DNA of 64,000 bases. Origin: an uncultured bacterium. GTDB taxonomy: Bacteria > Desulfobacterota > BSN033 > UBA1163. Numbering within the stretch: the stretch's first letter is position 1; each line of letters opens with the position of its first letter. The position numbers and the translations under genes were made by a program. The notes beneath the pieces are model-generated. The model saw nothing but the letters and a program-made list of their open reading frames with translations, did not search any database and had not been told where the DNA came from. Positions 3,829 through 43,640 of this stretch are shown here, in pieces. The stretch covers positions 1 to 64,000 of the forward strand of contig CALLAL010000040.1 in assembly GCA_938002255.1 (NCBI GenBank), written 5' to 3'.

Positions 3829-5574
3829 ATGAAGAAAAGGGTCTTTCCATTGTTTCTTATATTCTCGGTGATACTGGCTTTCTTTCCTGTTCAGGCGGAC
3901 GAGAAACTTCCCGGACCTGGAGAAGTTTATGATCGGGCCATCGAGCACTTTCATCGGGGGAGATATCTGGAGGCTTTGGAAGGATTCAATAGAGTGATCC
4001 GGTCTTTTCCTACAAGCAGGCTGGTTCCTTATGCTCAGTTTATGATAGGCCAGACATTCCTGGACATGAAAAAATATGAGGAAGCTATAGAGCAATTTGA
4101 ATTTTATCTCAAAACCTACCCAGAGGGAGATCGAGTCAGAGAATCGGAGCAGGGATTGAAAGAGGCGCGAGAGAAGATTCAACAGAGAAAACAAATCAGC
4201 GGAACGATCGTAACAGGAAAACCTCCTGGTCAGGAACCGAGAAAGTTAGAGGTTCTAAAAGCATCCGAACATTCCACTCAAAGAGGCATCTTTCAAGACA
4301 GTGAGAGAGCGATGGGAGCAACCGTTATGGAAGCGACCCATCCCAAAGAGACCACGACGATTCCCTCAAAGGTGGAGACGCCTTCCCTCCGAACATTAAA
4401 GGAGTCGACAGAGAGACCGACAGAAGAAATTGCTCCAAAGACCCAAAAAGTGAAAAGGCGAATCTGTGCTCAGATTACGTATCTTGATGGACGGAATTGG
4501 GTTGACGTGGAGAAAAGGATCAAGGAATTAAAGGAGGCTGGAGTGGACACGATCATCTTCCGGGTCTTTCAAAATAAAGGAGACCGGATCTATAAGTTCG
4601 TGAAAACCAGCCAGGAGGAAGGGGTCCTTTTCAACACTCAACATGCGTTCGTCCTTGAGGATATCCTGGAGAAGGTTGCAGAAATCGTCCATCGTCATGG
4701 ATTGGAACTTTTTGCCTGGATGACCACACGGTACGCCACCTATGGCACAGAAAAGAAACCAGAGTACTGGTCGAAACATTACAACTTTGAAACAAAAAAG
4801 ATGGAAATCGGGAGAGGGTTGAATCTGTTTCATCCAGATGTCCTGAGGCGCCTTGAGGGAATTTTTCGAGATCTGGGGCGTTACCCAATTGACGGCATCC
4901 TGTTTCAGGATGACCTGATCTTCAGACACAACGAAGACTTCAGCCTCGAGGCGAACAAGGCCTTCTTTAAGGAGTTTGGATACTCCCCTCATCCGGATAT
5001 CTTCTATATTGAACCTTATCAATCCGATTCAGGGAAGTATTATGTGAAGGGATATACAGAACAGTTCTGGACATGGGCGACATGGAAGAACCGCTATTTA
5101 ATGGAAGTGGCTGAACGGTTAATGGCGGCCGCCAAAGCATCTAACCCAAAATTGCAGTTTATGATCAATCTCTATTTTGAAGCGGTTCTAAACGATTTGA
5201 ATGGAGTGGCCTGGTTTTCACAGGTCCTGTCAGAGGCAGTAGGCAGGGGATTCGACTATTATGCGGTCATGGCCTACCACCGTCAGGCAATGAAAGGCAG
5301 GAATATCGAATTAAAGGAAGCCATCGATTTGATGGCCGAGGCCGCTCAGAAAACGATCCAATCCACGGGCGATCCCCATCGGGTGCTGATGAAGATCTGG
5401 ATCCTTGACTGGAAGAGCAATGAGGCCGTGGGTCTGGATCTAGCTCCGACAAAAGAGATCGAGGAGGTTCTGGAAAGCGTCTTGAAACAAGGAAACGTTA
5501 GCCTGGCTTTTGTTCCCTACACCCCCCAGTTTCCCCTCCACCAGTTGAAAGAAAGATGGAGGGCTCCGAACTAG
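3829..5574 (+). CDS. Secreted TPR protein with PgaB-like glycoside hydrolase domain
   Basis: 581 residues from the ATG at 3829, which is preceded by a G/A-rich ribosome site (AGGGGAAATGGA) and begins a clear signal peptide (KKR then a hydrophobic core ending around VQADE). Residues ~30-125 form TPR-like repeats of the YbgF/BamD type (ALEGFNRVIRSFP; AIEQFEFYLKTYPEG). After a Ser/Thr/Pro-rich linker, residues ~225-575 resemble the GHL13 domain found in the C-terminal half of the exopolysaccharide deacetylase PgaB: a TIM-barrel-like start (AGVDTIIFRVF), FAWMTTRY, and the acidic DGILFQDD motif. The N-deacetylase half of PgaB is missing. It likely binds or cleaves an exopolysaccharide in the periplasm; the substrate is unknown. 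Confidence 0.7.
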   Translation: MKKRVFPLFLIFSVILAFFPVQADEKLPGPGEVYDRAIEHFHRGRYLEALEGFNRVIRSFPTSRLVPYAQFMIGQTFLDMKKYEEAIEQFEFYLKTYPEGDRVRESEQGLKEAREKIQQRKQISGTIVTGKPPGQEPRKLEVLKASEHSTQRGIFQDSERAMGATVMEATHPKETTTIPSKVETPSLRTLKESTERPTEEIAPKTQKVKRRICAQITYLDGRNWVDVEKRIKELKEAGVDTIIFRVFQNKGDRIYKFVKTSQEEGVLFNTQHAFVLEDILEKVAEIVHRHGLELFAWMTTRYATYGTEKKPEYWSKHYNFETKKMEIGRGLNLFHPDVLRRLEGIFRDLGRYPIDGILFQDDLIFRHNEDFSLEANKAFFKEFGYSPHPDIFYIEPYQSDSGKYYVKGYTEQFWTWATWKNRYLMEVAERLMAAAKASNPKLQFMINLYFEAVLNDLNGVAWFSQVLSEAVGRGFDYYAVMAYHRQAMKGRNIELKEAIDLMAEAAQKTIQSTGDPHRVLMKIWILDWKSNEAVGLDLAPTKEIEEVLESVLKQGNVSLAFVPYTPQFPLHQLKERWRAPN

Positions 5575-5626
5575 TTCGGATTTTTATCGGTTTAAAAATC
5601 ACATGGCGAATCATGTTCCTATCCAT

Positions 5627-6610
5627 CTATGTCCACGAAGCCCCGTTTTTGTTTGATTGCGGGAAGAGTCTTTTGGGAACCCACCACAGGTAAACTCCCA
5701 TCCCAAGTAACTCCACCAACGACTGAAAAACGATTGCAACGACTGCCAGATCGTAGGAGGGGGGTAAGGCAAGGGCAAGAGGCAACACCACAAAAGAATT
5801 TCTTGTGCCGAAGCTAAATGCTAATACGCGACCCTGCAACGTGGGCAATCCGAAAAATAGGGCGAGCAAGCGCGCTAAGAGTCCTGCTACGAAGAGAAAG
5901 CCGACATAGATTAAAAGTAACTGGCTTAGGAATTTATAGGAGGCAGTGACCAGATTCACCTGCGTTGCGGCAATCGTGAAAACCACCAGACTGAGAAGGG
6001 GGACGGGTAGCCATGCCAAAGCATAGAGCCATCCGGCTTTGCGAGGAGTGCCCTCAGCCCACTTTTGTGTAACGAAAGCCCCTATCAGAGGTAGAACAAT
6101 GAAGCCAGCAAAGGCGGTCATCATTTCTTGACGCGCCACAGTGATGGTAAAGGTTTCTCCAAGGAAGAGATAGAGATAAGCTGGCAGAAAGACCATTTGA
6201 AGAAGCAAACTGATGGGAGCGAACGCGATGGCCAGCTTTGTATCCCCACCTCCTAAGTGTGTGAACGTGATAAACCAGTCTGTACACGGCACGAGCAAAA
6301 CTAATAGAATACCAAGCCGAATGGCCGGGTCAGCCGGCAGGAGATGCTTAACTCCCCAGAGGAGTGCTGGAATGATCAGAAAATTTCCAATGACGGCTGA
6401 CTTTATGAAACGAATGTTGGATATTGCTTTTCGTAGATGCAATAATGGCACTTGCGTGAAAGTTGTATAGAGCAGCAGGGCGAGGATAGGCCAGAGCAGC
6501 CTCTCCACTACGCCTACCCAGCCCGGCAGGAATATTCCGGAGGTCAAACCACAAGCGATCGCCACAAGGTAGATCCATACTTGGTATTTTTCAAGATTCT
6601 GGCGCGTCAA
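5627..6610 (-). CDS. ACR3-type arsenite efflux protein (bile acid:Na+ symporter superfamily)
   Basis: 327 residues with about nine to ten hydrophobic helices. The segment LLVPCTDWFITFTHLGGGD (residues ~105-123) holds the conserved cysteine of the fourth helix that ACR3 proteins need for arsenite transport, and a late FSFGTRNSFVVLPLALALP stretch matches the second conserved half. The predicted start is TTG at 6610, with an AGGAAAGG ribosome site six bases upstream. No arsR, arsC or arsM gene is nearby, so arsenic specificity is inferred from sequence alone; some relatives of this branch are annotated only as arsenic-resistance-like. It is convergent with the preceding glycosidase-like gene. 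Confidence 0.75.
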   Translation of the reverse strand: MTRQNLEKYQVWIYLVAIACGLTSGIFLPGWVGVVERLLWPILALLLYTTFTQVPLLHLRKAISNIRFIKSAVIGNFLIIPALLWGVKHLLPADPAIRLGILLVLLVPCTDWFITFTHLGGGDTKLAIAFAPISLLLQMVFLPAYLYLFLGETFTITVARQEMMTAFAGFIVLPLIGAFVTQKWAEGTPRKAGWLYALAWLPVPLLSLVVFTIAATQVNLVTASYKFLSQLLLIYVGFLFVAGLLARLLALFFGLPTLQGRVLAFSFGTRNSFVVLPLALALPPSYDLAVVAIVFQSLVELLGMGVYLWWVPKRLFPQSNKNGASWT

Positions 6611-10119: not shown

Positions 10120-11034
10120 TCAGGAGTTTGCCGTCTGGATTTGGTTTCCTCCAGCATGCTTGGCCTGGTACAGGGCATCATCCGCCGCTTTGACAAATCC
10201 TTCGAGGTCGAAATGCTCCTTGAACTCGGCCAGACCGATACTGACCGTGATCTTCTCAAAGCCAGCCTCTTCAATCGTCGTTCGAATTCGTTCTGCGATT
10301 TGGAGGGCTTGATCTCGGGTAGCGCCAATCAGGAGAGCGGCAAATTCATCTCCTCCATAGCGATATCCAGAATCGACATTGCTTCTGATCGAATTTTTAA
10401 TAATCTCTCCGATCTTTCTCAACACCCGATCTCCCTCCAGATGGCCGTACCGGTCATTGTAATTTTTAAAATTGTCGAGGTCGAACATCAATAGAGAAAG
10501 GGAGGTTCTCTGCCGTTCTCGACGAACCAGTTCTGCTTCAAGCGTTTTAAAGAAATGGCGGTGATTGTACAGGCCGGTCAGATCATCCGTAATGGAAAGT
10601 CTCCGAACCTCTTCCTCCAATTTCTGTTTTTCCTTCAGGGTGAGGTATTTTTCCATCGTTTGGTTGACTATATGGATCAAATGTTCATTTTCAAAGGGTT
10701 TTTTAATGAAATCGGATGCTCCCTCCTTTAGGGCCTGGATCGCATTATCGAGCGTGGCATAGGCTGTTAACATGATGACGCACTGAATGGGGTTGTTCTC
10801 TTTGATCTTTCGAAGGGCTTCCACGCCATCGATTCCCGGGAGGTTGATATCCATCAAAATAATATCCGGTTTCTCCTCTTTTGCCTTGCTCACCCCTTCT
10901 TCGCCGGTGGAGGCCATAATGACATCGTAACCTTCATAACGGAGGAGCTTCTGAATAATCTCCCGGGTATCCTGAGCGTCATCCACGACCAGAGCCTTTC
11001 CTTTTGCGTCATGAGGAACGGATGGAACTTCCAT
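10120..11034 (-). CDS. Response regulator with GGDEF domain (REC-diguanylate cyclase)
   Basis: 304 residues. A receiver domain (residues ~12-125; acidic pair VVDD at 16-19, phospho-acceptor D62 in MDINLPG, and K111-K112) is joined by a helix to a GGDEF domain with an intact GGDEF motif (227-231), so it should make cyclic di-GMP. The inhibitory site five residues before GGDEF reads SNVD instead of RxxD (the arginine is displaced by one), so product inhibition may be weak. The start ATG overlaps the end of the upstream kinase gene by 26 bases and has an AAGGAG site. It is probably the output partner of that kinase. Confidence 0.88.
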   Translation of the reverse strand: MEVPSVPHDAKGKALVVDDAQDTREIIQKLLRYEGYDVIMASTGEEGVSKAKEEKPDIILMDINLPGIDGVEALRKIKENNPIQCVIMLTAYATLDNAIQALKEGASDFIKKPFENEHLIHIVNQTMEKYLTLKEKQKLEEEVRRLSITDDLTGLYNHRHFFKTLEAELVRRERQRTSLSLLMFDLDNFKNYNDRYGHLEGDRVLRKIGEIIKNSIRSNVDSGYRYGGDEFAALLIGATRDQALQIAERIRTTIEEAGFEKITVSIGLAEFKEHFDLEGFVKAADDALYQAKHAGGNQIQTANS

Positions 11035-40518: not shown

Positions 40519-41103
40519 TCAAGACACCCTTTGTCTGAGCATTCTTAACAGCGCTTCCGGGCTTTCTCTGGCCAAAATCCCCCTGAACTGACTTCGATAG
40601 TTCTGGACCAAGCTGACTCCTTCGATCACCACATCGTAGACCTTCCACTGGCCCTGCCGAACAATCATCCTGTACCCAATCGGAATGGTCCTCGAAGGCA
40701 TCACGATTTGGCTTTCCACTTCCACCCTGTTTTCTGAAAGCTTTACTTCTTTGGCAAAAACGACCTTCTCATGGGTATGGGCAAGGATACGATCCATATA
40801 AATCCTTCTGAGCAATTTTCCGAAAAGATCGGTGAATTCCTTCCGCTGATCGGGCGTAAAAGAATTCCAGTGAACGGCCAGGGTTCTTCTTGAAAGTTCC
40901 GTGTAGTCAAAAATTTCATCCACGATGGACTGGACGTTTGCTTCTTTTTCCGTCCTGTCTTTCATCGAGGGGTCGTTAACCACCTCAAGGACTCTGTTAA
41001 CCCGACTTTCGATCACGCGAAGGGCGCTCTCTGCCAGGACTTGAGCCGGTTGGACCACCAGGAAGATCAGAAGAAATCCGGTAGAGATCCTTAGAAGCTT
41101 CAT
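40519..41103 (-). CDS. mlaC: MlaC/Ttg2D-like periplasmic phospholipid carrier
   Basis: 194 residues with a signal peptide ending near VLAESA. The MlaC fold is seen in VLEVVNDPS, the FTDLFGKLLRRIYMDRI helix and YRMIVRQGQWKVYDVVIEGVSLVQNYRSQF, the conserved late segment. It shuttles lipids between the outer-membrane complex and the MlaFEDB transporter. It is the last gene of mlaE-F-D-C; mlaB and the outer-membrane mlaA are not adjacent. Confidence 0.85.
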   Translation of the reverse strand: MKLLRISTGFLLIFLVVQPAQVLAESALRVIESRVNRVLEVVNDPSMKDRTEKEANVQSIVDEIFDYTELSRRTLAVHWNSFTPDQRKEFTDLFGKLLRRIYMDRILAHTHEKVVFAKEVKLSENRVEVESQIVMPSRTIPIGYRMIVRQGQWKVYDVVIEGVSLVQNYRSQFRGILARESPEALLRMLRQRVS

Positions 41104-41552
41104 TACTTCACCTCGCCAAAAGCATATCTTTTAATGAGTCCTTCGATGTCCACAGGTGATTCGGTCTCTGTAATAATCTGACCCGGTTTCAGGATGTCCC
41201 CCCCTCCACCCGGATCAATGCTAACATATCGATCGCCGATCAAGCCAGCGGTCTTGATGGAGGCGATCGCATCGTCATAAATCTGGATTCCTTTTTTAAT
41301 CCTAAAGGTCACGATAGCCCTCTGATTTGGTTGATCAATCTCCATCGCTTCTACCCGGCCGATTTCAATCCCATGCATCTCCACAGGGCTGCCGATCCTT
41401 AACCCTGAAACCGATGTAAAATGTGCGAATAGTGTGTAGGCGTCTCTGCTGAAGAGGCTGACTTCTCCCAGTCGAATCACCAGATATGCGACACACAGCA
41501 ACCCAATGAAGACGAAAATGCCTGCGACGGTTTCATGACGATATTTTTTCAT
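41103..41552 (-). CDS. mlaD: MlaD-like MCE-domain lipid-binding protein
   Basis: 149 residues: one membrane helix (VAGIFVFIGLLCVAYLVIRLG) and one MCE domain (GLRIGSPVEMHGIEIGRVEAM; GLIGDRYVSIDPGGGGDILKPG). MlaD forms a hexameric ring on the periplasmic side of the transporter and passes phospholipid. Its stop and the mlaC start share one base. The length is typical for a short MlaD without the extra C-terminal region. Confidence 0.87.
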   Translation of the reverse strand: MKKYRHETVAGIFVFIGLLCVAYLVIRLGEVSLFSRDAYTLFAHFTSVSGLRIGSPVEMHGIEIGRVEAMEIDQPNQRAIVTFRIKKGIQIYDDAIASIKTAGLIGDRYVSIDPGGGGDILKPGQIITETESPVDIEGLIKRYAFGEVK

Positions 41553-41558
41553 GCCATC

Positions 41559-42800
41559 CTACCTCCGTTCTCCACAAAAAACACGAGCGACTTCTCTTTG
41601 ATTTTTCCGTGCCTGGTCGAGAATATGGTCAATTTCTTTAACGCCAAACTGGCTTTCCGCGAGTCCGCCGAGGATGATGAATTCATAGCAGCTCTCGCGA
41701 TAGAGGCGGGCCTCCGTCTGAATCGTTCTCAACCCCTCTTCCCGTAACTCCCTTGAGAAGTCTTTGAGAATTTCTTCTGCCTCGTGAAGATCTGAAAAAG
41801 GAAGGACAATTGAAAATTGGCTTCTTCCCTGCCGTGCTGAAAATCCTCCTACCGTCCCAAAATGTTTGTTGATATATCTGCCAAGGGAGTCCAAGACTTT
41901 TTGTCCGGTGGTATGTCCAAGAGAAGCACAGAGTCCATCAAAGTCCTCAAGGGTAAAGAGACCCACGACAAACTTCTCCTGAGACCGTTTTCGATGAAGC
42001 ATCTGTTGGTATCGGACCTTAAAATGGCGTTTTGAGTAAATCCCGGTCAGATGTTCCTGTAATTCTTCGAGGCTTTCGACAAATTCATCCTGAAAAGGAT
42101 GTTGAAATGTTTCAAAGGCTTCAGGCGTCCCCTGAAAGATTATCTTTCCTTCATCGAGGGCAAGAATCCGGTTTGAGATAAAGAAGACATCAGGGACATC
42201 ATGACTGATCAGAATGGCGGTAAACCCCAATCGTTTCTGATATTCCGAGATCATGCTTAAAATCGCATTTCTCCGGATCATGTCCTGACCGGTAGTGGGC
42301 TCGTCAAAAAGGATGATCTTGGGGTCTGTGACCAGAGCCCGACTCAAAGCGACCCGTTTTTGCATCCCCCCTGAAAGTTCGGAGGGATATTTCTTTTCTA
42401 CTTCATGGAGTTCCATTTGCTCCAACCTCAGCCTGACCTTTTCCTCAATGACCCTTCGGTTGAGATGGGTGGTCTGACGAAGGGGAAAAGCAATGTTTTC
42501 GAAAACGGTCATCGAATCGAAGAGGGCATTGTTCTGAAACATATAACTGACCTGCCGGATATATTGATCCCATTCCCGCTTGTTCATTTGATGGATGGGT
42601 TGACCTTTATAAAGAATATAGCCCTCATCCGGTTGAAGGAGACCGACAATATGCTTCAGAAGGACACTCTTGCCTCCTCCGCTCTTCCCGATGATCGTGG
42701 CCACCTCTCCCTCGTAGATCTGAAGATCGATCTGATCGAGGACGGTATGGTGGCTGAACCGTTTGGTTACCCCTTTGAATTCAATCAATGGCTGTACCAT
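41559..42800 (-). CDS. mlaF: MlaF-type ABC ATPase fused to a degenerate GGDEF domain
   Basis: 413 residues, about 150 longer than a normal MlaF. Residues 1-~240 are the ABC ATPase: Walker A GKSGGGKS (38-45), LSGGMQKRVALSRAL signature, Walker B IILFDEPTTGQD. The added C-terminal ~165 residues begin LTGIYSKRHF and continue with VVGLFTLEDFDGL, GHTTGQKVLDSLGRYI and SARQGRSQFSIVLP, the layout of a GGDEF domain with GGDEF replaced by GRSQF and the metal aspartate lost. It cannot be a diguanylate cyclase but may bind a nucleotide or serve as a docking part. It drives the mlaE-D-C lipid transporter. Confidence 0.85.
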   Translation of the reverse strand: MVQPLIEFKGVTKRFSHHTVLDQIDLQIYEGEVATIIGKSGGGKSVLLKHIVGLLQPDEGYILYKGQPIHQMNKREWDQYIRQVSYMFQNNALFDSMTVFENIAFPLRQTTHLNRRVIEEKVRLRLEQMELHEVEKKYPSELSGGMQKRVALSRALVTDPKIILFDEPTTGQDMIRRNAILSMISEYQKRLGFTAILISHDVPDVFFISNRILALDEGKIIFQGTPEAFETFQHPFQDEFVESLEELQEHLTGIYSKRHFKVRYQQMLHRKRSQEKFVVGLFTLEDFDGLCASLGHTTGQKVLDSLGRYINKHFGTVGGFSARQGRSQFSIVLPFSDLHEAEEILKDFSRELREEGLRTIQTEARLYRESCYEFIILGGLAESQFGVKEIDHILDQARKNQREVARVFCGERR

Positions 42801-42812
42801 AACCTTTTTCGA

Positions 42813-43640
42813 CTATAGAAGCAGTGAGGTGACGACATAATCACTGATTAGAATTAAAACGCATGAAAGAACAACGGCCGAGGTGGTAGAGACTCCTACG
42901 GCCTTGGCGCCATAACTGTCTTTCTGCATATGGGTAAAATAACCTTGAAAACAGCAGACCGTTGAGACGATCACGGCGAAGACCACCGCCTTAACAAAAC
43001 CGCTTGTGATGTCTTCCATCTCCACACTTGACTGGACGCGATAGAAATAAGAGCCTGCATTGACCCCCAGAAGCAAGACACCGGTAAGGTACCCGCCGAT
43101 GATTCCGATGAGATCGAACATAGCCGTCAAAAGAGGAAAACTGATGATGGAGGCGGCGATTCTTGGGCTCACCAGATAACGGACAGGATCGATGCGCATG
43201 GTGAAAAGGGCATCAATCTGCTCGGAGATCCGTTGACTTCCAATTTCAGCAGCCATGGCAGATCCTGCCCTCGCCGTCACCATGATGGCGGTTAATACAG
43301 GCCCGAGCTCTCGTACCAACGAGAGAGCGACCGCAGAACCCAAGACTCCCGCTGACCCAAATTTCACCAGCGTGTGAAAGAGTTGGAGCCCCAATACCAT
43401 GCCCGTAAAAAGGCCAACCAGCAGGACGATCAGGGTAGAACGAGCTCCAATCGAATAAATATGTTCAAGGATCAGGGGGAGTTGTTTTGGCTGGAAAATC
43501 ATGACCATTGACTTAACCATAAAAATAAACAATGCTCCTGAATCTTGAATGACATAGATTGCTCGTCTGCCTAAGAGAGAAATCAAGGGCAAAGGATTTT
43601 TTTCAGCTGAGGTGTGGGTTTTCCCGCGTGTGATGTTCAT
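42813..43640 (-). CDS. mlaE: MlaE-like permease of the lipid transporter
   Basis: 275 residues; first gene of mlaE-F-D-C. A MlaE fold with about five membrane helices, the conserved GLFTGMVLGLQ..L entry, SLVRELGPVLTAIMVTARAGSAMAAEIGSQRISEQIDAL motif and VVFAVIVSTVCCFQGY in the later half are seen. An N-terminal amphipathic extension precedes the first helix. It forms the membrane dimer of the transporter that maintains outer-membrane lipid asymmetry. Confidence 0.87.
   Translation of the reverse strand: MNITRGKTHTSAEKNPLPLISLLGRRAIYVIQDSGALFIFMVKSMVMIFQPKQLPLILEHIYSIGARSTLIVLLVGLFTGMVLGLQLFHTLVKFGSAGVLGSAVALSLVRELGPVLTAIMVTARAGSAMAAEIGSQRISEQIDALFTMRIDPVRYLVSPRIAASIISFPLLTAMFDLIGIIGGYLTGVLLLGVNAGSYFYRVQSSVEMEDITSGFVKAVVFAVIVSTVCCFQGYFTHMQKDSYGAKAVGVSTTSAVVLSCVLILISDYVVTSLLL

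Follow-up and report, generated by a model that had tools for sequence, protein, structure and literature searches.

By sequence and predicted structure, the product of one gene in the window (the whole 64,000-nucleotide stretch of DNA analysed here) is an MlaF-type ABC transporter ATPase with an added C-terminal GGDEF-fold domain, a fusion that recurs across the Thermodesulfobacteriota. The gene is a single uninterrupted 413-aa frame, organized as follows.

41559..42800, minus strand: mlaF-GGDEF fusion gene, 413 aa (open reading frame, Pfam, full-length AlphaFold model)
42096..42800, minus strand: MlaF-type ABC ATPase domain, residues 1–235 (Pfam, PDB matches, alignment to E. coli MlaF)
42051..42095, minus strand: linker helix, residues 236–250, FQDEFVESLEELQEH (AlphaFold model, conservation, alignment to E. 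coli MlaF)
41562..42050, minus strand: degenerate GGDEF-fold domain, residues 251–413 (PF00990, AlphaFold domain model, VIA-align)

The MlaF identity proposed in a preliminary description of this DNA was borne out. The Pfam model ABC_tran matched residues 21–170 (6e-36), the Walker A (GKSGGGKS), LSGGM, Walker B (ILFDEP) and H-loop (SHD) motifs are intact, and the Met of LSGGM is a hallmark of Mla/TGD-like ATPases (PMC7367683). E. coli MlaF chains (6xgz, 6xgy and 6xbd) were the top PDB matches for the full-length AlphaFold model (pLDDT 84.8, pTM 0.66; linker pLDDT 66–70), and E. coli MlaF is the closest structural match of the ATPase domain; the fused and E. coli MlaFEDB systems share LSGGM-type ATPase motifs and the mlaE, mlaD and mlaC partners. 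The NCBIfam MlaF equivalog model NF008809 was the best-scoring model, yet at 196.9 bits the fusion protein falls below its cut-off of 441 bits; the model is narrowly fitted to E. coli-like MlaF.

Beyond the last ATPase helix, the window protein continues through a conserved helix (E245 is kept in 47 of 51 family members) into the GGDEF fold, with no counterpart of the E. coli handshake tail; in the alignment, the helix sits where that C-terminal extension of E. coli MlaF would begin. The additional C-terminal part is real but longer than the ~165 residues initially estimated, amounting to ~178 residues from about residue 236 when the conserved helix is included, as compared with the ~25-residue handshake tail of E. 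coli.

A GGDEF fold with a degenerate active site

The fold of the added domain is established by several comparisons. Pfam GGDEF (PF00990) matched residues 250–355 of the window protein (1.1e-12; 48.5 bits against a cut-off of 23.8) and all 43 of the 43 family members scanned, and a PDB profile search with these 43 members gave low E-values to GGDEF structures only (best 3.4e-17). An AlphaFold model of the domain alone, built on the family alignment (pLDDT 85.5, pTM 0.80), was aligned by VIA-align to PleD over 161 residues (Z 16.1, rmsd 2.8 Å), reached Z 15.2 against the GGDEF domain of FimX (3hva) and was grouped with diguanylate cyclases by both Foldseek and VIA-align. The GGDEF layout read earlier from the letters, with an unrelated fold as the outcome that would count against it, has held: the predicted structure is a GGDEF fold. 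The best-conserved domain residues are mainly structural GGDEF ones (L251, T252, G253, R323 and G379), and the fold and structural residues are shared with the diguanylate cyclases PleD, DgcR and SadC. Mean column entropy is 2.25 bits in the domain versus 1.08 in the ATPase; such faster evolution is as expected of a regulatory module, and equally of a loosely used one.

To score the active site, 51 family members were aligned with the three other strong GGDEF proteins of the host genome, all of which keep GG(D/E)EF, DxD and the guanine-binding N and D in this common alignment. Two substitutions in the window protein, both already noticed in the preliminary description, stand out.

41814..41828, minus strand: GRSQF, residues 325–329, in the GGDEF position (context RQGRSQF; alignment)
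41952..41954, minus strand: Thr283 in place of the metal aspartate (PleD D327; alignment)

The guanine-binding positions are likewise altered in the window protein (C for N335 and Q for D344), and across the family neither the GG pair nor the metal Asp is found in any member (0/51 each). An active diguanylate cyclase is ruled out, as GG(D/E)EF, the metal Asp and the guanine-binding Asn and Asp are all gone, and on its residues the domain is catalytically dead. Unlike PleD, DgcR and SadC, it is also joined to an ABC ATPase. FimX and LapD similarly retain a dead GGDEF fold as a regulatory module, although these are GGDEF-EAL signalling proteins, whereas the fusion has a transporter ATPase as partner and no EAL domain. 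A second degenerate GGDEF, with RSNGEISLL replacing RxGGDEF, was observed in the host genome in a 295-aa frame with no ABC ATPase (L122, G000:C7:10162-10461).

A dead domain might nevertheless bind c-di-GMP or GTP and gate transport, like some degenerate GGDEF signalling proteins. The nucleotide binding suggested in the preliminary description finds some footing among relatives: seven of the 51 members (L033, L077, L078, L085, L087, L090 and L094), all early-branching in the ATPase tree, retain RxxD, the motif of the c-di-GMP inhibitory site, and the three intact-motif GGDEF proteins of the host genome mean that c-di-GMP may be present. The suggestion is weak for the window protein, where the metal and guanine-binding residues are gone and GTVGGFSAR occupies the expected RxxD..R position of the I-site. 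With RxxD missing in 44 of the 51 members, the window protein included, and the GG pair and metal Asp missing in all, we regard a cyclic-dinucleotide or GTP sensor as quite unlikely.

Two cysteines are recurrent features of the family and are absent from the aligned canonical GGDEF proteins.

41688..41690, minus strand: Cys371 (Cys within 3 columns in 36/51 members)
41574..41576, minus strand: Cys409 (Cys within 2 columns in 42/51 members)

These residues lie on either side of the domain's final two strands and, judging by strand order, could be neighbours in space; they are a possible redox or metal site. A co-varying cysteine pair was rejected: both residues occur together in 31 of the 51 members, with no statistical coupling (Fisher p 0.42).

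An mla operon without mlaB

The fusion gene lies in an operon with mlaE upstream and mlaD followed by mlaC downstream.

42813..43640, minus strand: mlaE, 275-aa permease whose short N-terminus lacks a STAS domain (PF02405, 2.4e-76)
41103..41552, minus strand: mlaD, 149-aa short MCE protein (PF02470; exceeds the NCBIfam equivalog cut-off for MlaD)
40519..41103, minus strand: mlaC periplasmic lipid carrier, 194 aa (PF05494, 1.2e-45)

This operon is established by sequence, and mlaA is present in the host genome at G000:C2:73049. As the preliminary description had stated, mlaB is missing. STAS_2 had no match above its cut-off anywhere in the host genome, and PF01740 matched only a 580-aa and a 144-aa frame, both on other contigs. 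In 47 genomes with the fusion, no listed STAS_2 match lay closer than 10 kb to the operon; STAS_2 matches do occur in many of these genomes, away from the fused operon. The E. coli MlaB query matched solely beside MlaF in three operons (L111, L112 and L116), and MlaF is without a GGDEF domain in all three. The fusion and MlaB are mutually exclusive in the operons examined.

One explanation, also advanced in the preliminary description, is that the domain replaces MlaB, folding back onto the side of the ATPase at the helical subdomain and stabilizing MlaF in cis. The mutual exclusivity agrees with this, as does the observation that E. coli MlaF leaves the complex without MlaB (PMC7367683). However, mlaB was also not seen with the unfused orthologues L034, L079, L082, L086 and L107, and MlaEFD without MlaB has been reported as the ancestral state (PMC10665443), so the absence of MlaB is the background state and not a consequence of the fusion. 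Two of these orthologous operons (L034 and L086) have no GGDEF domain, no mlaB and no long tail, hence the domain is not an absolute requirement. The predicted placement of the domain, itself weakly determined, is below the ATPase in a MetN C2-like position and not at the MlaB site. We therefore consider replacement of MlaB rather unlikely.

Distribution and history of the fusion

A search for the same fusion elsewhere, which the preliminary description had proposed, was made in a sample of 395 Thermodesulfobacteriota genomes by a domain-only search followed by reading of the loci, and recovered it in no fewer than 50 genomes and 18 families. Chance or misassembly is ruled out by this recurrence, as is a fusion confined to the window's genus. 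A scan of contigs with the full protein returned mostly plain ABC ATPases, plus L031–L034. The order mlaE-mlaF/GGDEF-mlaD-mlaC was found in nearly all fused loci readable end to end, and mlaA directly follows mlaC in 33 of 47 fused operons as read from coordinates, which indicates complete Mla systems; the resulting order E-F-D-C(-A) differs from the F-E-D-C-B of E. coli. Conservation of the domain across these genomes is likewise established. Genome G135 has a pair of distinct MlaF fusion genes on a single contig (L041:474-1829 and 4728-6032). Lone close MlaE relatives were observed at L080, L098, L099, L100, L103 and L105, with MlaF, MlaD and MlaC not found within ~5 kb.

The domain search covered two phyla, the second being Pseudomonadota (398 genomes), for which at most 8 candidates per genome were scored in the first pass. 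It yielded 21 domain-like matches at E ≤ 1e-20, and the fusion was not seen among the eight of these that were read (L131–L138), which are ordinary GGDEF proteins with GG(D/E)EF and no ABC signature, suggesting that the fusion is missing from Pseudomonadota.

Scaffolding pseudoenzymes commonly lose catalysis and keep their fold, and the domain might accordingly be a docking platform, an interface that puts the transporter in contact with an active diguanylate cyclase or with some other regulator. An intact GGDEF protein is encoded within the window (match 10141-10593). Against such an interface, no conserved partner gene was found beside the fused operons apart from mla genes (mlaA), and the non-mla neighbours of the window operon recur only in close relatives, so docking seems distinctly improbable to us.

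In a tree of the ATPase part, 49 fused proteins and 5 unfused orthologues group apart from other MlaF groups (100/99). Among the unfused orthologues, L079 encodes a 286-aa MlaF (L079:5798-6658) whose GGDEF-like domain is lost except for its beginning, and it nests among fused members (99/88); judged from this position, it is a secondary loss of the domain. The tree fits a single old fusion followed by losses, but its well-supported branches force at least two changes, and repeated gain of the fusion is therefore possible. The fusion is found in only 6 of 17 genomes of the window's family, and a genome of the window's own genus (G215) has a divergent fused version that groups with family f56; this patchy presence and grouping suggest transfer within the phylum.

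Where dS was not saturated to infinity, dN/dS of the domain was about 0.04–0.13, values that are rough because several dS exceed 1, and from these ratios the GGDEF-like domain is under purifying selection. A functionless appendage still awaiting loss would be in keeping with the lost or shortened domains of the five unfused orthologues named above. Retention in so many genomes and families, the low dN/dS and the conserved fold residues make it very hard to credit.

Proposed role of the domain

Active GGDEF domains function as dimers. In E. coli, the MlaF tail embraces the neighbouring MlaF and contacts MlaB; when it is deleted the complex loses MlaF, and function is largely restored by fusing on a GCN4 dimerization domain (PMC7367683). 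The GCN4 rescue indicates that a dimerizing C-terminal domain is, in principle, a sufficient substitute for the tail.

MetN of MetNI (3tuz and 3dhw) has an alpha/beta regulatory domain, C2, on the C-terminal side of its ATPase, and placement of the added domain is similar in our one monomer model, whose pTM of 0.66 determines it weakly. The full-length model aligned with MetN including C2 (3tuz_H) over 320 residues (model residues 4–381, Z 30.1), loosely at an rmsd of 5.0 Å, and with E. coli MlaF (6xbd_I) over 241 residues (Z 29.7). MetN C2 is a small methionine-binding domain, and upon methionine binding the C2 domains prop the ATPases apart (PMC10710835). Unlike MetN C2, the domain described here derives from GGDEF, is part of a lipid transporter and is without a known ligand.

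From the models and these analogies, we infer pairing, placement and any response to a ligand as follows. The dead GGDEF domain that replaces the tail may serve as a C-terminal dimerization or regulatory domain of the Mla ATPase, placed like MetN C2, a reading to which we give about an even chance. Two copies of the domain would lie below the ATPase dimer, and their pairing, either mutual or with the adjacent subunit, would keep the MlaF dimer on MlaE, as the handshake tail and MlaB do in E. coli. Altered pairing may also gate ATP hydrolysis. Were there a gating signal in the window's clade, neither GTP nor c-di-GMP, bound where these normally bind, would be a likely one.

A bolder version, which we think unlikely, is that the pseudo-GGDEF domain in the Mla motor gates outer-membrane lipid traffic on a cytoplasmic signal, which could be c-di-GMP in the early-branching RxxD-bearing members; the window's clade would have lost that site and switched to another input, possibly thiol/redox or metal via C371/C409. 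If true, gating would directly link second-messenger-derived machinery to membrane lipid asymmetry. Control of Mla activity is an open problem even in E. coli, whose MlaB has a debated role, and the phylum offers a natural alternative in which the transporter lacks MlaB and the handshake tail but has a folded domain attached to its ATPase. Should the domain dimerize or sense, it would reveal the purpose of MlaB and the tail, and would represent a signalling enzyme turned transporter part.

A search of openly licensed PMC papers found no description of an MlaF-GGDEF fusion; the kind of transporter and the kind of fold are both known, in a combination that we could not find described. Veillonella parvula MlaEFD shares with the fused system a core without MlaB, but its MlaD is long and bridging, its MlaF has a shortened tail and no extra domain, and MlaC and MlaA are missing (PMC10665443).

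The host genome holds further transporters of this kind. A second complete mlaE-F-D-C-A operon (L123, G000:C2:70045-73650) encodes an unfused 251-aa MlaF, with MlaB not detected, and together with the unfused orthologues it provides natural controls for the fused system. At a third MCE transporter locus (L124, G000:C3:33900-36600), a 385-aa MCE protein is encoded along with MlaE and MlaF-like proteins.
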